Origin: a virus
Direction: 5' to 3' (one strand)
IMG/VR virus record: IMGVR_UViG_3300001533_000352
Span: 1 to 49,605 of that record
Length of the DNA: 49,605 bases
The translations under genes were made by a program, and so were the position numbers. Numbering within the stretch: the first letter of the stretch is position 1; each line of letters begins with the position of its first letter. Shown here piece by piece: positions 27,996 through 49,233 of this stretch. The notes beneath the pieces were generated by a model. It was not told where the DNA came from. It made no database searches and saw only the letters and a program-made list of their open reading frames with translations.

Positions 27996-28542
27996 GTACG
28001 ACCTGTTCCGTGAAAGTGATTATTGTTTTATGAAAATCCGATAAAAGACCATTATTTTTAATAATATGGGTCCAGCCAGAATAATTACTCAGTTCCGAAT
28101 CCGCACCATCATCGAATTGGTCCACATCAGGTCGATCAATTCTAACCAAGAACCCATCTTGTTCAATAATACAATCAGCTTCATTTGGAAAACGCATGTC
28201 AGTGACGAAAACAATATCGGCTAACGGGTTCTTGAGAGCCAGATTAGTCCAGACATCTGTTTCTATTTCACGACAAGCATTACCATATTTTATCCAAACA
28301 TCCCTGGCAGAACGACCAAGAGTCGGAATATAAAGATCTTTCTCTTCAGGATGTTGCTCGTAGTATTCAGTTGTTTTCAAACCAAAATCTTGGAATAGTT
28401 CATAGCAATGTTCTTTCATTGTATATGCGAAAGTTATTTTTTGAGTCGTTATACCAGGGTACTCCCACCTTAGATGATTGAGCATGAAACGAACAGCAGT
28501 GTCCTTACCAACATAGCGTCGGTGTCCGAAAGCAATTAGCAT
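27970..28542 (-). CDS. Deoxynucleoside monophosphate kinase
   Basis: The 190-residue protein has a P-loop at the N-terminus (FGHRRYVGKDTAVRFML), KYGNACREIETDVWTN and VFVTDMRFPNEADCI. This combination is characteristic of T4 gp1-like dNMP kinases, which convert dNMPs to dNDPs for phage DNA synthesis. It lies between primase-helicase and methyltransferase genes and overlaps both (7 bp and 26 bp). Together with the ribonucleotide reductase at 45492 it completes a dNTP supply route. The identity is clear; base specificity is not. Confidence 0.85.
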   Translation of the reverse strand: MLIAFGHRRYVGKDTAVRFMLNHLRWEYPGITTQKITFAYTMKEHCYELFQDFGLKTTEYYEQHPEEKDLYIPTLGRSARDVWIKYGNACREIETDVWTNLALKNPLADIVFVTDMRFPNEADCIIEQDGFLVRIDRPDVDQFDDGADSELSNYSGWTHIIKNNGLLSDFHKTIITFTEQVVHDRFAHIL

Positions 28543-31214
28543 GAGACGTCCTCTAAATGTAATTTGTCACCATGTAAAACAAATTTCTTACCATTTTCGG
28601 GTTGTGGTTCGAAACTAATGTTTCCGATATACCATTGTGCATCAGCGGGGTTCCTTCCTTTGGGGAACTTATGTTTCGGTAACTCCTTACCGAAACGAAC
28701 AATAGACCAATCGTAAATGTCATTAGGGTCCAACCATTCTTTGTAACTATCATACAGTTTACTGTACTTGATCCAATGACCTGGTGCATAATGACAAAAA
28801 TCTTCTAACCACTCTTCAAGTAGTGTTCTGTTTGATTGTTGTACTGATCTTTTCGCTTCGGTTTCGATAACAGGTATATTGAGTCTATCCTGAGCATAAG
28901 GTATTTCAAGATTCAAAAGCTTTGCTAAGAAATTCGGTGCCTCCTTCTCTAATCTTGGAATAATTTCTCTTTTCGGAATGATGTTCATTAGATCACCGAC
29001 ATGGATCATAGTGATACGGCTGTCACCAGGGAAAACTGGACACGAATCCAAATCATTACTCGCATGGATAAAATGCGTAGTATTGATTGCCATGTACGGT
29101 GTTTGTCCTTTCTTATGAATTGCAATTTTGCGTGAAGTAACCCAATCCTTAATACGATTGTACGCGGTCTTGTTTCGCTTGAGGTCCGTTTCCTCGATAA
29201 CACAGAGTACAGCTTTCTCTATTTCGGCATTGAAACCACTTTGGTTAATTAAAGCTGCATCCGCACGCATGACACCACCAGTTATGAGTAACTCAATAGC
29301 TTCATGCAAAATGGACTTGCCAGCATTCTGGCTACCCCAAAGGAAAAGATAAGGTAATGGTTCCAATGGTTCTTTGAACATGGAAGCTAACCAACAGATA
29401 AGATAGTCAGCACCAGTCAAAACGTTATTGGTTTTCGCCCAAGGATGTTCCTGGATTATTGGGTCTAGATCCTTACCTATATGATTTAGAATCAGTTTCC
29501 AGGTTTCAAAATTCAGATCATCATTGTAGATGGCTGGTGCATAACGTAAGCGAGCAGCTTTACGATTCCATCGTCGATCACTAAGATACTCGTCAGCGAA
29601 AGGTCTGTTAACGAGACGCCAAGGTCTACTGATACAGGAACCAATAAGCTCAACAGTTTCTTTATGAGCTAGACCATTACCTTGTAAGAAATTCTTAACA
29701 TGAATCAATGGTTCATGGACCCATGTATTATCGGCACGAATAACCCAGCCACAATCTTCACCAGACTCAGTTATTAAATGCCTGACCAAATCATCATAGT
29801 TACCGACTTCGACTTCTTCTTTCGATGGTGATTTGGAATTGAAAATCTTTTGCCAGTAACCTTTTTTAATTAACCATGAGTTCAATGTATCATCTGGAAC
29901 GTCATGTGCTTCATGCTTAATACAGACAAGTAAACGACCATCTTTATGTAATTTGAGTTTGGTCTCCCGACCTGAACGCAGCCATACAGGTAGCTCGAAA
30001 TGGACACCTAAAAGATTTGCCGCTTGTGTTGCGACTTCTGCTTCTTTGAAAATGAAACCACCATCGGTATCCTCGATACCACCGAAAGCTTTCGATGCGA
30101 TATTTAGATCAGGGTCTTTATTGAAGAAACATTTGGTCCAACCATTACGATCTTGAGTCCAGGTTTCAGCTTCACCTATACCAGGTGTGAAACGCCTAAT
30201 GACCCAGGCACCATTCCTTAATGGATGCCCGAAACAGTTTTGCTCTTGTAAATCATTACCTTGAGATAATGTCTTATAGACACCGCGTAGATTGAGATTA
30301 TCATGTGCAAGCTGGAGAGCATAAGTATGTGTAACAAGGGCATGATGATCGGGGTCCCACCACCAGATATGATTGTTATCTTGTAGGAAATCTATTAGTT
30401 TCTTATGTGAATCGTCTAAGGGTATTTGGACATGTTGTCCAGTTACCTCTTCAAACATCTGTTCCACAGAATTAGCAACAAAGCTAGGTAAGACTTTGTT
30501 ACGCTGTCCTTGGACCACAGGGACATGATCTTGCCAATTGATGGGTATCTCTTTTAATACACTTCCTTGTTTAATTAACTGTAGTCCATTACCTTTCATC
30601 TTCCGGTGCCAGATCCAATGATTACCACCACAGACATCGACTTTCGCCCGGAGGTCTTTACCTGTCATCGCGGAGATCATGCCCAAGATAGCACGGGCCA
30701 GGGCAGCGTGTTCGGTATGATTACATGTAGACACATTATCTAGATACACATATAAATGTAAACCAGACCCAGATGTCGAATATCTTACTGTAACCCACGG
30801 GATATCTGTTACAGTGTTTTGAATGTCTTTGAGTTCTGTGTTAGTTAGACCATCACCATGGTCTATAATACTATCGAAATCGAAAGCAACCCAACATGAA
30901 GACTTGTTTACCCAATCCCAACCAGTCATGCCGATACCTTCAGCATGTTTCAACAAATCATAAGACATCTCCGTGTCTGTGTACTCGGGATCGGAGTTCG
31001 CTTTGTGGGGTATCCGAAAAGATTTCCAGGTCTGAACACCATCAGTCCAACCATGCCACTGACGACCTTTATATTCTGCCTCAATACGTTCGCCACCATC
31101 CTGAGCAACATTAACCTGCACTTCCATGTTAGCATTGTATAAATCAGCCAGATCTTTGTGGGTCTGATTAGCTAGAAATCTTTTTATAGCTTCCGTTTTC
31201 GTTGGTTGGACCAT
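28536..31214 (-). CDS. Primase-helicase (AEP primase plus SF3/D5 helicase)
   Basis: I place the start at 31214 (892 residues). An upstream in-frame ATG at 31277 would fall at the predicted transcription start, and the leader hairpin would then be coding. An AAGGA site lies 8 nt before 31214. The N-terminal third has WVAFDFDS and TSGSGLHLYVYL, the D-x-D and S-x-H signatures of archaeo-eukaryotic primases. The C-terminal part has LFLWGSQNAGKSIL (Walker A), VLCVIEETD (Walker B) and FIHASND (sensor 1), as in D5/SF3 helicases. It should prime and unwind at the fork. It heads the minus-strand operon. Confidence 0.88.
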   Translation of the reverse strand: MVQPTKTEAIKRFLANQTHKDLADLYNANMEVQVNVAQDGGERIEAEYKGRQWHGWTDGVQTWKSFRIPHKANSDPEYTDTEMSYDLLKHAEGIGMTGWDWVNKSSCWVAFDFDSIIDHGDGLTNTELKDIQNTVTDIPWVTVRYSTSGSGLHLYVYLDNVSTCNHTEHAALARAILGMISAMTGKDLRAKVDVCGGNHWIWHRKMKGNGLQLIKQGSVLKEIPINWQDHVPVVQGQRNKVLPSFVANSVEQMFEEVTGQHVQIPLDDSHKKLIDFLQDNNHIWWWDPDHHALVTHTYALQLAHDNLNLRGVYKTLSQGNDLQEQNCFGHPLRNGAWVIRRFTPGIGEAETWTQDRNGWTKCFFNKDPDLNIASKAFGGIEDTDGGFIFKEAEVATQAANLLGVHFELPVWLRSGRETKLKLHKDGRLLVCIKHEAHDVPDDTLNSWLIKKGYWQKIFNSKSPSKEEVEVGNYDDLVRHLITESGEDCGWVIRADNTWVHEPLIHVKNFLQGNGLAHKETVELIGSCISRPWRLVNRPFADEYLSDRRWNRKAARLRYAPAIYNDDLNFETWKLILNHIGKDLDPIIQEHPWAKTNNVLTGADYLICWLASMFKEPLEPLPYLFLWGSQNAGKSILHEAIELLITGGVMRADAALINQSGFNAEIEKAVLCVIEETDLKRNKTAYNRIKDWVTSRKIAIHKKGQTPYMAINTTHFIHASNDLDSCPVFPGDSRITMIHVGDLMNIIPKREIIPRLEKEAPNFLAKLLNLEIPYAQDRLNIPVIETEAKRSVQQSNRTLLEEWLEDFCHYAPGHWIKYSKLYDSYKEWLDPNDIYDWSIVRFGKELPKHKFPKGRNPADAQWYIGNISFEPQPENGKKFVLHGDKLHLEDVSC

Positions 31215-31235
31215 AGACATTTCCTTGATGGCTTG

Positions 31236-31261
31236 GGTCTGGTCTAAATTCCGACCAGACC
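31236..31261 (-). promoter_or_regulatory. Leader hairpin, left arm
   Basis: Nine-bp arms GGTCTGGTC and GACCAGACC, with an 8-nt loop GGAATTTA read on the minus strand, lie just downstream of the leftward promoter and upstream of the preferred primase-helicase start. The same stem occurs in the rightward leader at 31519-31543. Confidence 0.8.
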
Positions 31262-31280
31262 TGATAGAATGAACCATAAT

Positions 31281-31318
31281 ACTATACTGCTATAACTAAA
31301 ATTATGAAAACGGTTTTC
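31281..31318 (-). promoter_or_regulatory. Leftward promoter with palindromic operator
   Basis: On the minus strand a -35 box TTTTCA (31310-31305), an 18-bp spacer and a -10 box TATAGT (31286-31281) are visible. The palindrome GAAAACCGTTTTC (31318-31306) covers the -35 box and should act as an operator. 32 of 40 positions match the rightward promoter. Confidence 0.7.
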
Positions 31319-31452
31319 GTAAAGTGTTGTAAGATAAGGGTTTACGGATTACTAACCAACTGTTTCCGCAATTGCTAACGTAATTGGGGTATAGGTGATC
31401 GCACATACGTCACTCCTACCGGCTTCACTACTTGTTTGTTTCCAGTTTTTTT
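31319..31452. other. Divergent intergenic spacer
   Basis: This is the core of a 359-bp gene-free region between the two replication arms. It holds no credible ORF. Imperfect inverted segments occur (TAGGTGA at about 31392 and TCACTCCTA at about 31411; ACGTA and TACGT around 31378-31410), so an origin or further regulator sites are possible but not shown. Confidence 0.4.
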
Positions 31453-31490
31453 GAAAAACGTTTTCATATTTTTAATTATGGTGGTATAGT
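31453..31490 (+). promoter_or_regulatory. Rightward promoter with palindromic operator
   Basis: A -35 box TTTTCA (31461-31466), an 18-bp spacer and a -10 box TATAGT (31485-31490) are present. The near-palindrome GAAAAACGTTTTC (31453-31465) overlaps the -35 box, as in the opposed promoter. Transcription would start near 31497 and serve the ParB-helicase-polymerase arm. Confidence 0.7.
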
Positions 31491-31518
31491 GGAGTAGCTA
31501 GTTTGTGGCCACGTCAAA

Positions 31519-31543
31519 GGTCTGGTCGAATTTAGACCAGACC
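31519..31543 (+). promoter_or_regulatory. Leader hairpin, right arm
   Basis: Arms GGTCTGGTC (31519-31527) and GACCAGACC (31535-31543) flank a 7-nt loop GAATTTA. Stem and most of the loop are identical to the leftward leader hairpin, including the following CCAA. It lies in the 5' untranslated leader, about 20 nt after the expected transcription start. Confidence 0.8.
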
Positions 31544-31560
31544 CAAAGCATTCAGACCAA

Positions 31561-31578
31561 AGGAGGTGTACCATGTAA
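31561..31578 (+). promoter_or_regulatory. Start-stop minigene (ATG TAA) with strong ribosome site
   Basis: AGGAGG at 31561-31566 is followed after 6 nt by ATG TAA, and TAG comes next. The ribosome site is better than that of the true gene 60 nt downstream, so ribosomes should initiate and terminate at once. This may control translation of the ParB-like gene or titrate ribosomes or initiator tRNA. Confidence 0.6.
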
Positions 31579-31636: not shown

Positions 31637-32713
31637 ATGTCTGAAGATCTTATGACAGAATTCGGTGTCCAAGAAATTCCAGTTAGCATGATCCGCTTGG
31701 CCAAAGACTCATTGCGTGATGCTCAACGTGAGAATGAGTCTTTTGGTGAATTGGTGGATTCGATTCGGACCCATGGTCTATTGAATCCTATCGTTGTGTA
31801 TCATGTTGCGGATGACGAGGATGAGCATTTCGTCCTCGTGGATGGCACGCAACGTTTCGCTGGGTGTTGTGATGCAGGTCTAGAAATCATCCCTGCAAAT
31901 GTTATCCAGAATCGTGGTGAAGCAGACATGCTTCGCAAACAGATTGTCGGTAACATTCACCGAATCGAAACGAAGCCTGTTGAATATTCAAAACAGCTTC
32001 AAAAGATTTTGTCCTTGGACCCGGTTTTGACGGTGAATCAATTGGCCAACCAATTGAATAAGTCGTCAGCTTGGATTGGGCAACGTTTGGGCTTGCTCAA
32101 ATTGGACAAGTCTGTTGCTGAATTGGTTGATGATGGCAAAATCAATTTGTCCAATGCTTATGCTCTGGCAAAACTGCCAATCGAAGAGCAGATCAACCAC
32201 GTTGAAGCGGCCATGACGAAAACGCCTGGGGATTTCGTTCCCGAGATTTCTGAGCGAAAGCGTGAATTGGACAAGGCTCGTCGTGAAGGTCGTACCGCAA
32301 GTGACGAGTACATTCCTGTTCCACGATACCAGAAATTGACTGTTGCCAAGGCTGAAGTCGAAGATCCTAAGCTTGCTCCTGTCTTGTGCAAGCGTCATGG
32401 TTGCGAGACACCTGCTGACGGTTTCACACTCGGTGTGAAATGGTGTATGCAGATCGACCCTGATAGTGTTGCAGTTGGCAAAGAAAAGCATGATGCCAAG
32501 ATGCTAGCTATCCAGGAACGACGCGAAAAGGCGAAAGCTTCACGTTTGGAGAAGCGGCAGAAGGAAGCTGAAATCAAAGCCGAACGAATCCGTATTGAAG
32601 CGGAGGCAATTCGTGATGGTAAGAGCGAAGACGAAATCAAAGCTATTCTGGCTGATTTCGACACACAATATAAGGAGTCAAGAGCAGAAGCAGAAACAGA
32701 AACAGAAGAGTGA
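31637..32713 (+). CDS. ParB-like nuclease/partition-domain protein 1
   Basis: The ATG at 31637 (358 residues) is preferred over a GTG three codons upstream. It has EIPVSMIRLAKDSLRDAQRENESFGELVDSI near the start, then GLLNPIVVY...FVLVDGTQRFAGCCDAGLEIIPANVI, the ParB N-terminal fold with DGTQR in place of the usual GERR. A helix-turn-helix follows (LTVNQLANQLNKSSAWIGQRLGLLKL). The last 80 residues are a highly charged coiled coil. No ParA gene is nearby, so it is more likely a replication regulator or DNA-binding factor than a plasmid partition protein. It is the first gene of the rightward arm. Confidence 0.8.
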   Translation: MSEDLMTEFGVQEIPVSMIRLAKDSLRDAQRENESFGELVDSIRTHGLLNPIVVYHVADDEDEHFVLVDGTQRFAGCCDAGLEIIPANVIQNRGEADMLRKQIVGNIHRIETKPVEYSKQLQKILSLDPVLTVNQLANQLNKSSAWIGQRLGLLKLDKSVAELVDDGKINLSNAYALAKLPIEEQINHVEAAMTKTPGDFVPEISERKRELDKARREGRTASDEYIPVPRYQKLTVAKAEVEDPKLAPVLCKRHGCETPADGFTLGVKWCMQIDPDSVAVGKEKHDAKMLAIQERREKAKASRLEKRQKEAEIKAERIRIEAEAIRDGKSEDEIKAILADFDTQYKESRAEAETETEE

Positions 32714-33569: not shown

Positions 33570-34070
33570 ATGTTTCCACGTGCAATTAAAATAGGCAAAC
33601 ACACAGCTGAGTATGATTTATTTTATAAGACGATGTCTGATGCGTTGGGCCACAGTGTCACCACTGTCATTGATTCTAGTAGTAGGTCTAGTCACACTGA
33701 GCTAAGTTACCTTTTAGCTATAGCTGCGGCTACAGGTGACACTCGCCCAATGTCAGACATCACAGAGTATTGTAATATCCATGCTAGACATTTGTTCTAT
33801 TCTTTCTTGGTTGTTCATATCAGACCCCTAATCACTGATTTCAATAATTACACGAACTTGGATTTAACCCAAATCGAGACCAAGAAACATATGTTTCTGT
33901 ATCTCGTTAGTGGGAGACTGATAGATTTCAAAATGGCTCTCCTCCAAAAGCATGAGGTCGAAGAAGATTTCGCTGAGGTTCTTGAGCAAATTCGAAACAT
34001 TTTGAAAGATGAAGGGTTCCGTAACTTGGTCGAAGAGTGTAAAGTAAAAGGAGTAAATCGTTTATTATGA
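33570..34070 (+). CDS. Hypothetical protein downstream of the inverted repeat
   Basis: The 166-residue protein is not recognised. It is mostly helical (ELSYLLAIAAATGDT; FYSFLVVHIRPLITDFNNY; DFAEVLEQIRNILKDEGFRNLVEECKVKG), without Cys clusters, a membrane segment or a nucleotide-binding motif. AAGAGGTAATAA precedes the ATG. The large structured element ends 16 nt upstream and could regulate its translation. Its stop overlaps the next start (ATGA). The context is DNA replication. Confidence 0.55.
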   Translation: MFPRAIKIGKHTAEYDLFYKTMSDALGHSVTTVIDSSSRSSHTELSYLLAIAAATGDTRPMSDITEYCNIHARHLFYSFLVVHIRPLITDFNNYTNLDLTQIETKKHMFLYLVSGRLIDFKMALLQKHEVEEDFAEVLEQIRNILKDEGFRNLVEECKVKGVNRLL

Positions 34071-41317: not shown

Positions 41318-42105
41318 ACACTTACATACTTTATCACAATGATGCTGATGGTTTCTGTGCTGCTTGGGTATTTTACAAAGTGATACCTGATGCAATATTT
41401 TTTCCCGTCCAGTATGGTGAAGATCCTCCTGAACAATTACTAAAAGTCGGTGAATGTAGTAATTTGTACATCATAGACTTCTCTTACCCAAAAAAGGTAT
41501 TGCAGGAACTAGCCACTTACTCACCTCTAACAGTTTTGGATCATCACAAGTCTGCTGAAGAAGCTCTACGAGATTTACCCTTCTGTCATTTCGATATGAA
41601 TCGTGCTGGTTGCATGATGGCCTACGATTATTGGGTGGAACGTGGTGTGAAATCAGCTGTGAATTATGATATTGTAAAATATATCCAAGATCATGATTTG
41701 TGGCGTTTCGAGTTACCTTCAAGCAAAGAAGTCCGTGCCGCCCTTGCAAGTTACCCTTTTAATTTTGCCATCTGGGATACTTTCGAGGTCCAGAATCTCA
41801 TTGCTGAAGGGAAATCAATTCTACGTTTCCAAGAACGTATGATTGAACGACATATTAAACATGCAACTGAAACCAATTTCCATGGTCACAAGGTGTTGAT
41901 GACAAATTGTACTGAGTCTAGTATAATCAGTGAGGTCGCTGGACGTTTGGCTATGGATAGGGAGTTCGGTGTTACGTTCTTTGATACCCAAGATGAGCGT
42001 ATCTACAGTCTACGTAGCCGTAGCAATTTCGATGTGTCAGCGTTTGCTAAACAATTCGGTGGTGGCGGTCATGCCAAAGCAGCGGGGTTCAAAATAACAT
42101 TATGA
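41314..42105 (+). CDS. DHH-family phosphoesterase
   Basis: A TTG start at 41314, overlapping the previous stop and preceded by CAGGGAAC, places the first motif HNDADGFCAAW at the very N-terminus, so it is likely genuine (263 residues). The other DHH-DHHA1 signatures follow: IIDFSYP, VLDHHKSAEE and C-terminal FGGGGHAKAAGFKI. Relatives include RecJ-like exonucleases, NrnA oligoribonucleases and cyclic-dinucleotide phosphodiesterases. In this setting, degrading short RNA/DNA or c-di-nucleotide signals are both possible. It overlaps the next gene by 4 bp. Confidence 0.88.
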   Translation: MNTYILYHNDADGFCAAWVFYKVIPDAIFFPVQYGEDPPEQLLKVGECSNLYIIDFSYPKKVLQELATYSPLTVLDHHKSAEEALRDLPFCHFDMNRAGCMMAYDYWVERGVKSAVNYDIVKYIQDHDLWRFELPSSKEVRAALASYPFNFAIWDTFEVQNLIAEGKSILRFQERMIERHIKHATETNFHGHKVLMTNCTESSIISEVAGRLAMDREFGVTFFDTQDERIYSLRSRSNFDVSAFAKQFGGGGHAKAAGFKITL

Positions 42106-42455
42106 ATAGTAAATTACAAAGTGAATACCGTTACAATAAAACAACTGATGTACATATTTACTCCGTAGTCGGTGGAGCGGGAACAGTACACTTACACTTT
42201 CGACAATATGCTGACGAATGTCATGGCGGTATCGAACAACATTACAGATACCCACCAGCATATAGGAAACATGATGCACCAGATCAAATTCATTGTTGGT
42301 TACTAGGTGGTCCATGTTGGCATGATGGATCATCTTTACAAGTAGAGGAGGTCTGGGCACCATTGTGGAAATCATTATTTCCAGACCATATTCGAATGTT
42401 GGAATTGTTAGAAGGTGAATACTATAGACTATTTGTGGAGGTGACGGATGAATAA
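42102..42455 (+). CDS. Hypothetical protein, His/Trp-rich
   Basis: The 117-residue protein is not recognised. It has YSVVGGAGTVHLHFRQYADECHGGIEQHYRYPP, then CWLLGGPCWHDGSSLQVEEVWAPLW and a closing helix. Many His residues suggest possible metal binding. It overlaps the DHH gene by 4 bp. It is the last AT-rich gene before the GC-rich island. Confidence 0.5.
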   Translation: MNSKLQSEYRYNKTTDVHIYSVVGGAGTVHLHFRQYADECHGGIEQHYRYPPAYRKHDAPDQIHCWLLGGPCWHDGSSLQVEEVWAPLWKSLFPDHIRMLELLEGEYYRLFVEVTDE

Positions 42456-42503
42456 ACAATACAACACCATTTATAGGATGTTCACTAAGTAAAATCTATC
42501 GAC

Positions 42504-42524
42504 TAGAGTCTGGCACAGACTCTA
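42504..42524 (+). other. Perfect 9-bp hairpin before the GC-rich island
   Basis: TAGAGTCTG (42504-42512) and CAGACTCTA (42516-42524) form a stem with a 3-nt loop. It sits in a 127-bp gene-free stretch (42456-42582) that separates the AT-rich replication genes from the GC-rich genes. No T-run follows. It could be a weak terminator or processing site. Confidence 0.5.
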
Positions 42525-42582
42525 ATCTGTGTTTATCAGACATTGATAACTACTTATCGGTACTCAACGAAAAAGGTGGCAA

Positions 42583-42996
42583 ATGAGCGGTTACAAGTTC
42601 GGCGTGGGCGAGTACACGACACGCGATGGCTCGAGGGCTATTGTCCATTTTAAGCTGCGCGAACCGTGCAGGTCTTCATTTGTTCTGATGGGCGAGGTGT
42701 GTGATAAAGGTAGTTGGTGCAGTGGCAGTTGGACGTTGAACGGCATGTATCAGTATGAGATAAACGGAAATGCCCGTGACTTAATGTGCCCTCGCGCTGT
42801 CGACGAAACAGATTGCGTTAACATCGACCCAGTCACGGTCACTGTCCGCCGCCAGCCGAAAGCCGAGCAACAGACTGAGCAACAGAAAATTAGTGCCATA
42901 CTGATGAAGCTATTTGACGCACCAGACATGCCGACCTGGGCACGCCACACAGCGGCATTGGTGCTCGATTGGCCGAGCGAAGGAGGTGACGAGTGA
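42583..42996 (+). CDS. Phage small protein, TTRDG family
   Basis: The 137-residue protein begins FGVGEYTTRDGSRAIVHF, then LMGEVCDKGSWCSGSWTLNGMYQYEINGNARDLM. This pattern of a short beta module (T.DG..A.V....G....W...G) recurs in small uncharacterised phage proteins. A helix follows (EQQKISAILMKLFDAPDMPTWARHTAAL). The gene opens the GC-rich island and uses CTG, GCG and CGC codons unlike its upstream neighbours. An AAAGGTGG site precedes the ATG. The stop lies inside a junction repeat that contains the next start. Confidence 0.6.
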   Translation: MSGYKFGVGEYTTRDGSRAIVHFKLREPCRSSFVLMGEVCDKGSWCSGSWTLNGMYQYEINGNARDLMCPRAVDETDCVNIDPVTVTVRRQPKAEQQTEQQKISAILMKLFDAPDMPTWARHTAALVLDWPSEGGDE

Positions 42997-43433
42997 GTGA
43001 TTTTAAATTCACGAGACTAGAACTAGAACGCCAAGCAGACGCCAACCAAATTCGTGAATTAGAACAGGAGATTGAGCGATTGCAGGTAGAGGTTGCGATG
43101 CTGAGCGACGAATTAGCTGTGTGGAAAAATGCTTCACAGTATGGGCATCCAGATCCATGTACACTCGGTCCACTCTGTCCATATTGCGAGATCGAGCGGC
43201 TGCGGAACGATGTGGACCAAGCAAAGGCAACAATCTACAACATGACGCCGTATCGAACGACAGCGGATGTCAAAGACACACTGGATGAGCAGTTGCTCTT
43301 TTTCGTGCAGCAAATGGACGCGGCTTGCACCGAGCTGGCGAATGCAATTTTGAGCGGGCCGGCTTATCGGCTGTTGGATCGAGTAAGCATCGGATTCCGT
43401 ATAGAGGCGGCGAAGGAGGTGACGAGTGAGTGA
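42993..43433 (+). CDS. Coiled-coil protein of the GC-rich island
   Basis: A GTG at 42993 follows AAGGAGGTGAC and gives 146 residues. The N-terminal 45 residues are a strong coiled coil (NQIRELEQEIERLQVEVAMLSDEL). A short Cys segment follows (DPCTLGPLCPYCEIERLRND), then a second helical part. The EIERLR unit is shared with the next two proteins of the island. The C-terminus IEAAKEVTSE is encoded by the junction repeat. No function is known. Confidence 0.6.
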   Translation: MSDFKFTRLELERQADANQIRELEQEIERLQVEVAMLSDELAVWKNASQYGHPDPCTLGPLCPYCEIERLRNDVDQAKATIYNMTPYRTTADVKDTLDEQLLFFVQQMDAACTELANAILSGPAYRLLDRVSIGFRIEAAKEVTSE

Positions 43434-43476
43434 CCGACTGTCAGACGTGAAGGCAGAGGAGGTGGAAGGTGGCTGA
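43426..43476 (+). CDS. Possible 16-residue leader peptide
   Basis: After the second junction repeat the GTG at 43426 opens a short frame, MSDRLSDVKAEEVEGG, which ends at 43476 and overlaps the following GTG start at 43469. It has the same ribosome site as the larger gene at 42993. It may be a degenerate remnant or a translated leader that couples to the next gene. Confidence 0.3.
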   Translation: MSDRLSDVKAEEVEGG

Positions 43477-43672
43477 CCGCATCCGCTGCCAGAGGTGCAA
43501 GGCCGAGTCTATATCATTCCGCGCACGACTCGTATGTGCTAACTGTTATCGCCAGCAGCAAGCCGAGATCGAGCGGCTGCGGCAGCAACTCGCCGACATC
43601 CGCTCGGCACTGCCGACCGAGTGGACCGAGGGTGATTGTGTGGACTGGACGGAAGAAGGAGGATTCGGATGA
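43469..43672 (+). CDS. Small zinc-finger coiled-coil protein
   Basis: The GTG at 43469 gives 67 residues. RIRCQRCKAESISFRARLVCANCYRQQQAEIERLRQQL combines a C-x2-C...C-x2-C zinc knuckle with the EIERLR coiled-coil unit that recurs in the island. The end (TEWTEGDCVDWTEEGGFG) is acidic. The call is supported by Cys spacing and by homology of the coil to its neighbours. Confidence 0.55.
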   Translation: MADRIRCQRCKAESISFRARLVCANCYRQQQAEIERLRQQLADIRSALPTEWTEGDCVDWTEEGGFG

Positions 43673-43694
43673 CCAAATCCGGGATCTGTTTGGC

Positions 43695-44120
43695 GTGGAC
43701 AACGACAATATGGTCGTGCCGCTGCTAAATCGTGCCCAACAAGCAGAGGCCGAGATCGAGCGGCTGCGGACCGAGGTGTCCGATCTGCGAGACACACTTA
43801 TCAACGAATCAGCCGACGACCCCGAGCGTTGTTGCTACGCGGTCAAGCAGCAGCAGCAAGCCGAGATCGAGAGGCTGCGGTCAACGGTGCGAGCTCTGCA
43901 GCAACAGGTGGCAGAGTACGAGCAGCGAGCGGAAGATAACGCAGAGATGGCACGCACAGCAGAGGCTGATGTTCAGCGGTTGCGGCAACAACTCGCCATG
44001 ATCAATCGCGAGTGGCAATTCGGAGTGCAGGACATTGACACGCCGTGGCGGCGAAGGATGGCGCGGCTCGTCGGTGATAATGAGGGGCTAGAGGCGGCGA
44101 AGGAGGTGACGAATGAATGA
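43695..44120 (+). CDS. Coiled-coil protein, start uncertain
   Basis: About 141 residues from a GTG at 43695; an ATG at 43710 is also possible. Two copies of (Q)QAEIERLR (NRAQQAEAEIERLRTEVSDL; KQQQQAEIERLRSTVRALQQQ) form a long coil, ending in the junction-repeat C-terminus LEAAKEVTNE. The best ribosome site and ATG (GAAGGAGGATTCGG, ATG at 43669) are in a different frame and give only 19 codons. The gene may therefore have lost its normal N-terminus by a small indel. Confidence 0.5.
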   Translation: MDNDNMVVPLLNRAQQAEAEIERLRTEVSDLRDTLINESADDPERCCYAVKQQQQAEIERLRSTVRALQQQVAEYEQRAEDNAEMARTAEADVQRLRQQLAMINREWQFGVQDIDTPWRRRMARLVGDNEGLEAAKEVTNE

Positions 44121-44265
44121 TTTAGAGCGACGAATGCTGCAACAGCAGACCGAGTTTGAGCGGCTCACTAGAAAAAGGATGAAGATTTTGAATAAGCGTT
44201 GTCTCTTGGCTGCCGCCGTTTGGGCTGTGGCTTGTGTAGTCTATGTGTGGCTGCTGTCACAATAA
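44113..44265 (+). CDS. Single-pass membrane microprotein
   Basis: An ATG at 44113, after the third junction repeat's AAGGAGGTGAC, opens a 50-residue protein. Its N-terminal half is charged (NDLERRMLQQQTEFERLTRKRMK). Its C-terminal half is a hydrophobic segment (LLAAAVWAVACVVYVWLL) of about 20 residues preceded by basic residues, suited to a tail-anchored inner-membrane protein with a cytoplasmic N-terminus. It could be a holin-like, spanin-like or host-membrane effector protein; no family is recognised. Confidence 0.6.
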   Translation: MNDLERRMLQQQTEFERLTRKRMKILNKRCLLAAAVWAVACVVYVWLLSQ

Positions 44266-44336
44266 AAAGGGCACCGTCAAAATCGGGGCATTGCGACAGC
44301 TAGCGAATGGCGGCATACATATCTGGAGGATGCCTC

Positions 44337-44477
44337 ATGATAGTGAACGATGAAACTATAAAAGAACTAGAAAGTCAATTGGAAAATTATCGTCGATTAT
44401 GGCAAGAACAAAATGAGATAATTACGGAACTCATGATGGAGAAGGAGCACCCACTTGTCCGAGAAAAAAAGAAATAA
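44337..44477 (+). CDS. Small coiled-coil protein (46 residues)
   Basis: The ATG at 44337 is preceded by CTGGAGGATGCCTC. The product (TIKELESQLENYRRLWQEQNEIITELMMEKEHPLVREKKK) is a heptad-like helix with a basic end. Codon use returns to the AT-rich style, so this gene lies outside the GC-rich island. It overlaps the next gene by 23 bp. Small size and composition permit only a structural description. Confidence 0.5.
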   Translation: MIVNDETIKELESQLENYRRLWQEQNEIITELMMEKEHPLVREKKK

Positions 44478-44697
44478 TCAACGCTGTATCCAGTGTAATG
44501 GTCCACTTATTAACGATTACTGTTATCGTTGCATGACTAAGAAGATGCCTACACCTGAAGAGATTCGGTTGGAATGTCTAAGGATACAAGATTCCTGGGA
44601 TGAAGAAACGGAATTAAGGAGACGTTGTATTCCGGCACCAGAATTAACGATTCACGTTATACCACAACCAATAAAAAGGTGGATACCATGCAATTAA
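44455..44697 (+). CDS. Small zinc-ribbon protein
   Basis: A TTG start at 44455 lies 7 nt after GAAGGAG and gives 80 residues. RCIQCNGPLINDYCYRCM is a C-x2-C...C-x2-C zinc ribbon. The rest is charged and helical (TPEEIRLECLRIQDSWDEETELRRRC). It overlaps the protease gene by 10 bp. No function is known; a regulatory nucleic-acid-binding role is possible. Confidence 0.55.
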   Translation: MSEKKRNNQRCIQCNGPLINDYCYRCMTKKMPTPEEIRLECLRIQDSWDEETELRRRCIPAPELTIHVIPQPIKRWIPCN

Positions 44698-45332
44698 CTT
44701 TCGGTCGTTTATACTCTTATGATAAACGTGATGACAATTATCCAATGAGACATCAGGTAGCGAAAAGAACTTTTCGTTACTGGAATCAAACTGCTTGGAA
44801 AGGTAATCAAAAGAAATTACCACAATGTGTCGGTTACGCCTGGGCACACTGGTTGAGTGATGGACCTTTCACACACAAAAAGAAACCACCAGTTAGACCA
44901 TCTCTAATTTATAAAGAGGCTCAAAAGATTGACGAATGGCCTGGTGAAGATTATGAAGGGACAAGTGTTAGAGCTGGAGCTAAAGTCTTAGCATCTATGG
45001 GTTATATTACCGAGTATCGTTGGGCTCGTGAAATTTTTGATATCATCAACGTTATTTTGACCCAAGGTCCGGTGGTGGTGGGTACACTGTGGTTTGAAGA
45101 TATGTCGTATCCGGACGAAAAACATTTCATGCACTGCGGTGGTGCTTATCAAGGTGGACACGCTTACCTTCTTAATGGTTGTAATATACAAAAACAAATT
45201 TTTCGAGTAAAAAACAGTTGGGGACCACAGTGGGCTAACCAAGGGAGTGCTTTCATCAGTTTCAAGGATTTCGATACTCTGTTCCAATTAGAAAAGGAGG
45301 CCTGTATAGGTCATGAGTCAACACCAATATGA
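44688..45332 (+). CDS. Papain-like (C1 family) cysteine protease
   Basis: The ATG at 44688 gives 214 residues. The papain catalytic set is readable: LPQCVGYAWAHWLSDG (Cys47, with Gln46 before it), GGHAYLLNGCN (His148) and FRVKNSWGPQWANQGSAFISF (Asn166 within NSWG). EDYEGTSVRAGAKVLASMGYI matches the GTS...G segment of C1 enzymes. There is no propeptide and no signal peptide, so it would act in the cytoplasm or in the virion. It may process phage or host proteins. It overlaps the genes on both sides and lies two genes upstream of the reductase. Confidence 0.82.
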   Translation: MQLTFGRLYSYDKRDDNYPMRHQVAKRTFRYWNQTAWKGNQKKLPQCVGYAWAHWLSDGPFTHKKKPPVRPSLIYKEAQKIDEWPGEDYEGTSVRAGAKVLASMGYITEYRWAREIFDIINVILTQGPVVVGTLWFEDMSYPDEKHFMHCGGAYQGGHAYLLNGCNIQKQIFRVKNSWGPQWANQGSAFISFKDFDTLFQLEKEACIGHESTPI

Positions 45333-47605: not shown

Positions 47606-48100
47606 ATGTCAACAACGAAAGTGGTAGGGCTTTTCGTAGATGTTTCGAATCTGTATTTCTGTGTTAATAAAGCGTTTCCTGGTAAGAAAATCAATTACGG
47701 TGTTTACCGTGATTTCGTAGTGGGAAACGACATCCTTTATTGTGCTCTGGCTTGTGGCACACAAAATAACCCAGAAAGTCTGAAATTCGAAACATGTCTG
47801 AACCATTTGGGTTATGAAACGATTTTCCGTTACAATCAAAACAAAAATAGAAAGTATCTCAACACAAATGTCATCATCACAATTGAAGTATTGAAAAAAT
47901 TACCAAAGATAGACGAGGTTATTTTAGGGACCTCTGACCCTGATTTCGTCGAACTCGTTTCTTATATCAAGGAATTAAAGAAAAGTGTTCGTATTGTATC
48001 TTGTGGCATTAACCATCAACTGAAGAAACATGCTACAAGCTATGAAGAAATTACTGAAAATTTGTTAGAGGTACCCAATGTTGCTCCAGACTCAGCCTAA
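47606..48100 (+). CDS. NYN-domain (PIN-like) protein
   Basis: The ATG at 47606, 8 nt after AAGGTGA, is preferred over a GTG at 47594; it gives 164 residues. It begins VVGLFVDVSNLYFCVNKAF (the Asp-x-x-N of NYN/PIN-like nucleases). ILGTSDPDFVELVSYIKELKKSVRIVSCG carries the G-S/T-x-D-x-D-F motif that completes the acidic site. Relatives (DUF88/LabA) are metal-dependent RNases. It may cut host or phage RNA. Its 3' end overlaps the next gene by 23 bp. Confidence 0.85.
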   Translation: MSTTKVVGLFVDVSNLYFCVNKAFPGKKINYGVYRDFVVGNDILYCALACGTQNNPESLKFETCLNHLGYETIFRYNQNKNRKYLNTNVIITIEVLKKLPKIDEVILGTSDPDFVELVSYIKELKKSVRIVSCGINHQLKKHATSYEEITENLLEVPNVAPDSA

Positions 48101-48512
48101 TAATTGGTCTTGTCTCCCTACTGCTTTCGCTATGGTTCTCGATGTTCCTGTTGCTCTGTTTATAGAACAACTGGGGCATGATGGATCACAGCAGCATTGG
48201 GAACGTTACCGATTAGCTTGGCATATTCAAGAGATTGCGAAAGTCTGTTATGATTACTATGGTGTCTGTGTCACTCAATTGGAAGCCGTTACACTCGCAG
48301 CACCGACACCGGGTTACGACCCACATGAGCAGACTTACGACTTATCTGAATACTATGGAGCAGATGCTGGGGTGGCTGGTGTCACGAACACTCGTGGCAT
48401 TGGCCACGCCCTAGCTTTCTCTAAGAGTCACTTCTATAATCCATCATCTGGACGGGAATGTAGTCTAAAAGATTACCAGGTCCATACTGTTTGGCTTTTG
48501 GGTCTAGTCTAA
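48078..48512 (+). CDS. C39-like cysteine peptidase candidate
   Basis: The 144-residue protein starts MLLQTQPNNWSCLPTAFAMVLDVPVALFIEQLGHDGS, resembling the C39 papain-like fold with Cys12 after Q-x-x-x-x-(W/D)-S/D-C. GIGHALAFSKSHFYNPSSG gives His110 and Asn121 at the position usually held by Asp. No ABC transporter or leader peptide is present, so bacteriocin export is unlikely. The protein may cleave peptides or only bind them. It is the second papain-fold candidate within 4 kb. Confidence 0.65.
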   Translation: MLLQTQPNNWSCLPTAFAMVLDVPVALFIEQLGHDGSQQHWERYRLAWHIQEIAKVCYDYYGVCVTQLEAVTLAAPTPGYDPHEQTYDLSEYYGADAGVAGVTNTRGIGHALAFSKSHFYNPSSGRECSLKDYQVHTVWLLGLV

Positions 48513-48600
48513 ATTCTTAATTTATTTGTTAGGGGGTTGACACGCATTTAATTTTATGCTATACTGTAGTTGGCAGGATCGCCCAAATAAGGTCTGGTCT
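48501..48600. repeat. Leader-type GGTCTGGTC half-sites around the sigma promoter
   Basis: GGTCTAGTCTAAATTC at 48501-48516 matches the leader hairpin half-sequence at 31236-31251 at 15 of 16 bases. A second copy, GGTCTGGTCTAAA, lies at 48591-48603, just downstream of the promoter. Neither has the complementary arm next to it. They may be binding sites for a shared regulator. Confidence 0.55.
48537..48565 (+). promoter_or_regulatory. Consensus sigma-70 promoter of the sigma-like gene
   Basis: TTGACA (48537-48542), a 17-bp spacer and TATACT (48560-48565) match the host housekeeping consensus almost perfectly. Transcription would start near 48572, about 50 nt before the sigma-like gene. It lacks the GAAAAC palindrome of the divergent replication promoters. 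Confidence 0.88.
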
Positions 48601-48621
48601 AAAAAACGGAGAATGAACAGA

Positions 48622-49233
48622 ATGTTCAGTGTGAAACGTAGACCTGTTACGCCTATTGATTCACCTTATGGCAGTGAAGACATAATGGTGGAGACGGAAC
48701 CTTTTCTCAAAAGATTAGCTAATGGGGACCTGGATGCAATAGAACCAGTGGTTCTAGGTCACGCCCGTTTGGCAATGAAAATCGCTGGTGGCTATTATCG
48801 GGCTGCCATCGCTCAAGATCTTCCATCCATTGCCATAATGGCTTTGTTCGATGGTTGTCTGGAAATCATCAAAGGTCATGATTGTAGGGGTAATTTAACG
48901 GGATACCTCGTGTCGAAGGTCCATTCCCGTTGTTACCGCTTCTATTGTGAAGATCGTCTGCTTCGCGTTCCGATGAACATGATTAACAAGAAAGGACCAG
49001 TTCTATTAGATAAGAAAGCTGACATCTATACCCTTAGAGCAAAGAAAGGAGGGACTTCCGAGTTAATACAAACAATTCTAGACTGTTGTGCAACAACCAG
49101 GGAGAAACAGATTATTCGTATGAAACAATATGGTTTTACTAACCTCGAAGTCGCATTTGTTTTCGGTTTAACCCGACAACAAATTGGCAACATTTTACGA
49201 CGTATCGAGAAACGTTTTGACAAAATGCAATAA
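48622..49233 (+). CDS. Sigma-70-like RNA polymerase sigma factor
   Basis: Of two ATGs (48613, 48622) the second is better spaced from CGGAG; it gives 203 residues. The N-terminal part holds a region-2-like segment (EPVVLGHARLAMKIAGGYYRAAIAQDLPSIAIMALFDGCLEIIKGHDCRGNLTGYLVSKVHSRCYRFY), with the LV..h...A..Y helix and the D.R..F.(T/S)Y.-like pattern. TREKQIIRMKQYGFTNLEVAFVFGLTRQQIGNILRRIEKRF is a region-4 helix-turn-helix. It probably redirects host RNA polymerase to phage promoters. It has its own strong promoter. Confidence 0.82.
   Translation: MFSVKRRPVTPIDSPYGSEDIMVETEPFLKRLANGDLDAIEPVVLGHARLAMKIAGGYYRAAIAQDLPSIAIMALFDGCLEIIKGHDCRGNLTGYLVSKVHSRCYRFYCEDRLLRVPMNMINKKGPVLLDKKADIYTLRAKKGGTSELIQTILDCCATTREKQIIRMKQYGFTNLEVAFVFGLTRQQIGNILRRIEKRFDKMQ

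Follow-up and report, generated by a model that had tools for sequence, protein, structure and literature searches.

A phage-specific box at two divergent replication promoters and a distant third promoter is probably a DNA operator

In a group of phages, a short sequence box recurs at the divergent promoters of a primase gene and a ParB-like gene, and again 11-20 kb away, where it usually brackets a third promoter. The box varies from phage to phage and agrees between the arms of one phage. It is probably a DNA operator, read at all three promoters by one phage-specific trans-acting protein.

The twin promoters and their leader boxes

The window is the whole stretch of DNA analysed, 49,605 nt long. 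The initial annotation had described opposed promoters, palindromes at the -35 boxes and stems in the leaders, and the sequence at 31228-31551 bears this out. The 43-nt segments 31281-31323 and 31448-31490 are inverted copies of each other with 81% complementarity, which is consistent with the agreement at 32 of 40 positions reported before. "Promoter" at the twin region means a sigma-70-like consensus prediction on both strands. The features are:

28536-31214, minus strand: first gene of the left arm, a primase with a DUF5906 helicase-like domain (start 31214 picked for its AAGGA ribosome site, 31226-31222)
31235-31251, plus strand: full box GGGTCTGGTCTAAATTC, outer copy, primase leader (one of the window's three exact copies of the 17-mer)
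31253-31261, minus strand: inner 9-bp box GGTCTGGTC, inverted partner, primase leader (inverted-copy comparison and mismatch count)
31281-31310, minus strand: predicted primase-arm promoter, TTTTCA-18-TATAGT (consensus scan; mirrors the right promoter)
31306-31318, no strand: palindrome GAAAACGGTTTTC, left -35 region (inverted-copy comparison and mismatch count; family-wide sequence conservation not found)
31453-31465, no strand: palindrome GAAAAACGTTTTC, right -35 region (inverted-copy comparison and mismatch count)
31461-31490, plus strand: predicted ParB-arm promoter, TTTTCA-18-TATAGT, with TG ahead of the -10 (consensus scan)
31519-31527, plus strand: inner 9-bp box GGTCTGGTC, ParB leader (inverted-copy comparison and mismatch count)
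31528-31544, minus strand: full box GGGTCTGGTCTAAATTC, outer copy, ParB leader (17-mer search)
31637-32713, plus strand: ParB-like protein 1 (ParB_N and HTH_ParB), first gene of the right arm

Each twin leader carries GGTCTGGTC/GACCAGACC, the 9-bp stem noted earlier, at 31236-31244/31253-31261 and 31519-31527/31535-31543. Its loops had both been called GAATTTA-type; one is GAATTTA, the other is TAAATTCC, and the two are not alike. At the outer elements, 31228-31251 repeats 31528-31551 in inverted form over 24 nt (92%). With up to one mismatch, GGTCTGGTC occurs 15 times against 6.0 expected, a count that no shuffle reaches. The full box is a 17-mer, GGGTCTRGTCTAAATTC, present in three exact copies (31235 +, 31528 - and 48500 +) where 0.31 would be expected even allowing up to three mismatches; the inner partners have 9 bp in common with it. 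The copy at 48500-48516, and a partial copy at 48590-48603, go beyond what had been annotated.

The GAAAA palindrome is weaker evidence than the leader boxes. Allowing one mismatch at most, it has 10 matches where 5.4 are expected, and 5 of 100 shuffles reach as many. Its earlier reading as a shared operator is not supported, as its sequence is not conserved in the family and it is missing at the third promoter.

Relatives and box variants

A DNA-level search of annotated phages with the window gave no match, and protein searches reached only distant primases and ParBs, with no cultured relative or host found. ParB alone as query returned nothing. The window primase returned six IMG/VR contigs, and an alignment of seven primases gave 178 matches, of which 80 were kept. 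The primase is common to about 85 IMG/VR phages, in most of which a ParB gene lies divergent beside it. Fragments are carried by three MAG contigs from unlike phyla, which gives little indication of the host.

Box and leader statistics were taken from 60 dereplicated contigs. In 32 of these phages both leaders contain the same 9-bp word, each in both orientations, against 2.05 in dinucleotide shuffles; the other 28 have no such four-fold matched box. The commonest box is GATTYGATT; others are GATGTGATG, GATGGGATG, CCGATGTCG and TTATCTTAT, with GGTCTGGTC in the window, and many consist of a 4-mer, one base and the same 4-mer again. The word GATTTGAT is found in 32 of the 60 intergenic regions (1.8 expected). 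The distance from -10 to box is only weakly enriched (17 vs 10.4). In L035, L036 and L038 the primase leaders carry TGTGGATAA repeats in place of the box. The GGTCTGGTC hairpin had 16 matches across all IMG/VR, all unrelated, and the stem sequence itself is therefore not conserved. The initial annotation had held that loss of its elements in close relatives would count against them: the closest relative of the window, L009, goes the opposite way, while some relatives have no recognisable boxes.

Several further features of these regions were recorded. In the ParB leader of the window (31559-31578) a strong ribosome site, AAAGGAGG, is followed by ATG-TAA-TAG, a start codon with a stop right after it; this element, comparable to STAB-SD or the lambda bar minigenes, was not seen in L009. 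A second common element, the palindrome GTAAGTCACSTAATTASGTGACTTAC, lies at the centre of the divergent region in L010, L012 and L062, and G003 and G024 have a similar sequence in their third cassette. Of the 60 intergenic regions, 22 contain the word GTAAGTC (3.1 expected). L035 and L036 each have three exact TGTGGATAA words, which are DnaA-box-like, in the primase leader and nowhere else in contigs G015 and G016. Primase genes about 330-350 codons longer occur in L062 (5998-9735), L076 (5986-9753) and L009 (2305-5964); in L062 and L076 the primase match is interrupted at one point (model position ~720), and this single break suggests an intein. Window G+C is about 0.50 at 42000-45000 and 0.40 elsewhere. 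The gene at 33570-34070 belongs to a fast-diverging family found in 18 of 21 contigs, with 23-25% identity to the window member, which by eye resembles a degenerate ThyX and has no Pfam match.

The box changes in concert between arms

Among the 60 contigs, the best ungapped match between the two leaders scored 11.31 within a phage and 7.84 between phages, a difference reached in 0 of 10,000 permutations; in the 32 phages without GATTY boxes the scores were 10.31 and 7.20. Promoter halves, taken as separate, non-overlapping halves, scored 12.10 within and 7.46 between, mainly as inverted copies, again with 0 of 10,000 permutations. The shuffle control given above matters beside the permutations because base composition is common within one phage. 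With leaders and promoters both matching within phages and not between them, the earlier suggestion that one factor acts on both arms is probably right.

Taken alone, the match of neighbouring arms could be a product of gene conversion; the distant third locus speaks against that being the whole cause.

A third, distant locus upstream of a sigma-like gene

The features of the third locus in the window are:

48078-48512, plus strand: conserved gene without assigned function, with the upstream third-locus box at its stop codon region (family in 16 contigs)
48500-48516, plus strand: third full box GGGTCTAGTCTAAATTC, upstream of the third promoter and overlapping the 3' end of gene 48078-48512 (17-mer search)
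48537-48565, plus strand: third promoter, TTGACA-17-TATACT (read in the sequence)
48590-48603, plus strand: partial box AGGTCTGGTCTAAA, leader of the sigma-like gene (mismatch count and reading)
48613-49233 (start 48613 or 48622), plus strand: phage sigma-70-family factor (family HMM)

In the relatives as well, the bracketed third promoter usually lies after the stop of the 48078-48512 family gene and, in many phages, before a sigma-70-like gene. The phage's own box falls within about 46 nt of that stop in 13 of 16 contigs, often with a second box 70-150 nt further on; these boxes are single, and every orientation occurs. Searched over whole contigs, exact GATTYGATT outside genes is almost entirely confined to the twin region and a single other region. 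In 12 of 21 contigs, words derived from the leaders occur elsewhere in pairs separated by 70-160 bp, though at least one of the 12 is not the orthologous site (G020, 438/517, another word in another place); the reversed-word control gave 0 of 21, and words from foreign phages gave 7.9%. Four relatives with non-GATTY boxes (L005, L035, L036, L063) likewise have a distant site where the box is the phage's own variant, as does the window, with no tie to the 48078-48512 family gene shown for the L063 box.

The family of gene 48613-49233 has sigma-70 regions 2 and 4. Its profile matches PDB sigma factors (1l0o_C, E=5e-20), Pfam Sigma70_r2 is found in 5 of 7 members, and a leave-one-out family HMM finds the window protein at E=1e-25; the window protein alone has no Pfam match. 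The third promoter precedes ParB-2 instead in G017, and in G015 and G016 other genes come first after it.

Are the boxes read as DNA?

The leader elements had been proposed to act as RNA hairpins in the transcripts, whether by put-like antitermination, mRNA protection or as a protein-binding leader. They do sit between promoter and ribosome site, both window twin leaders fold with a stem (z of -2.9 and -2.0), and the spacer length varies, as loops may. At the third locus, however, the window leader forms no hairpin (z +0.75; folding there was calculated for the window), and the boxes of the relatives there are simply unpaired. More than a dozen of the twin leaders themselves, on the ParB and the primase side, lack the inverted partner. 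The two arms of one phage have opposite polarity, ParB-side leaders being mostly AATCAAATC..GATTTGATT and primase-side leaders GATTTGATT..AATCAAATC, and both polarity and spacing vary widely (spacers mostly 0 to 42), so the conserved stem-loops of fixed polarity that characterise put-like elements are not found; Rfam has no family above threshold. A reader of RNA stems would need a fixed polarity and a partner and a DNA box needs neither, and we therefore prefer the DNA reading. The hairpin reading is probably wrong, and we consider it improbable in any of its forms.

It also seems rather unlikely that the region is a replication origin whose boxes serve as iterons for an initiator, be it the primase-helicase or some other protein. 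The replication genes are divergent, the boxes repeat a 5-mer in tandem (GATTT GATT, GGTCT GGTC), much as SF3 initiators bind repeated pentamers, and exact DnaA-box words (TTATCCACA) are confined to the intergenic region in contigs G015 and G016. Yet the same boxes bracket a third promoter distant from the replication genes, and the DnaA-box words occur in several copies in one small clade only. Equally unlikely is a role of the boxes as recombination boundaries, with promoter cassettes exchanged or converted within a phage: the boxes do bracket whole cassettes, and the G017 third promoter copies its twin promoters, but a 9-bp word matched across 11-20 kb while the rest of most cassettes differs needs a further reason.

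A proposed operator and its reader

From the boxes, their positions and their concerted change, all seen directly, we infer that one phage-specific protein binds at the divergent primase and ParB promoters and at the third promoter, which in many of these phages precedes the sigma-like gene. Boxes in the promoter-proximal leaders and just upstream of the third promoter bracket each regulatory cassette. The protein would likely repress early transcription, either as a roadblock or through contact or looping between the bracketing boxes, and repression of this kind would tie both replication arms to sigma synthesis.

The ParB-like proteins had been put forward as repressor candidates. This is weakened, in the one pair compared, by an adjacent ParB-1 helix-turn-helix almost unchanged between the window and L009 despite a change of box (to GATTCGATT in L009). 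The sigma-like protein, the primase-helicase and ParB-2 are other candidate readers. The part of the window's proteins that was searched, on a contig that may be incomplete, contained no recognisable repressor or integrase, and a small-ORF search gave no clear repressor family. A bolder version of the operator model, which we regard as possible though unlikely, is that the reader is a phage ParB-family protein that works without ParA and regulates transcription, bridging or spreading between the boxes that bracket the three promoters across a large uncultivated phage lineage, its specificity shifting quickly between phages in an immunity-like way.

The model offers a testable early-control circuit, comprising replication genes and a phage sigma-like factor, in a widespread lineage known only from metagenomes. 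The joint variation of the box at all loci from phage to phage makes it a natural experiment for studying the evolution of regulator specificity. In practice, the box predicts which promoters would be under the control of one phage regulator.

Comparison with known systems

KorB binds a fixed palindrome. KorB of plasmid RK2, a member of the ParB family, silences promoters over long distances (PMC11790492); the ParB genes that adjoin the boxes here are a likeness. Unlike KorB, the boxes have free spacing and often stand singly, with no palindrome of fixed half-site spacing as in KorB or parS operators, and the helix-turn-helix hardly changed when the box changed (one pair only).

The earlier statement that no described element resembles this one was too strong. 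Extended start-associated sequences (ESAS) of cluster K mycobacteriophages are 17-bp imperfect inverted repeats with a variable spacer, mostly 4-13 bp, in several copies per genome; they are found close to SigA-like promoters and to the translation starts of certain genes, are mostly tied to a 13-bp SAS, GGGATAGGAGCCC, at start codons, and differ in consensus between subclusters (PMC3203893, PMC11373665, PMC12699233). Here too there are inverted repeats with a variable spacer near promoters and a consensus that varies between phages. The present boxes differ in being 9-17 bp long at two regions of unrelated phages, with free orientation: the repeats are of 9 bp (17 bp for the outer copies in the window), spacers run from 0 to over 40, the partner is often missing and single boxes are common, and no SAS (GGGATAGGAGCCC) was seen in the leaders that were read. 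The findings suggest a possible role for ESAS-like repeats.

The stoperators and operators of cluster A mycobacteriophages are asymmetric boxes that a phage protein recognises within promoters and downstream of them. A genome has 20-30 of these sites, most of which share one orientation (with transcription); the phage immunity repressor that binds them is known, and the site sequence diverges between phages together with it (PMC6550527, PMC9283540). The boxes described here number about six and take any orientation, and the proteins searched included no recognisable repressor or integrase; like stoperators, they are asymmetric, phage-specific sites that change in concert. ESAS and stoperators are the closest known systems, similar in placement and in their phage-specific consensus, and the present boxes share features with both while matching neither in full.
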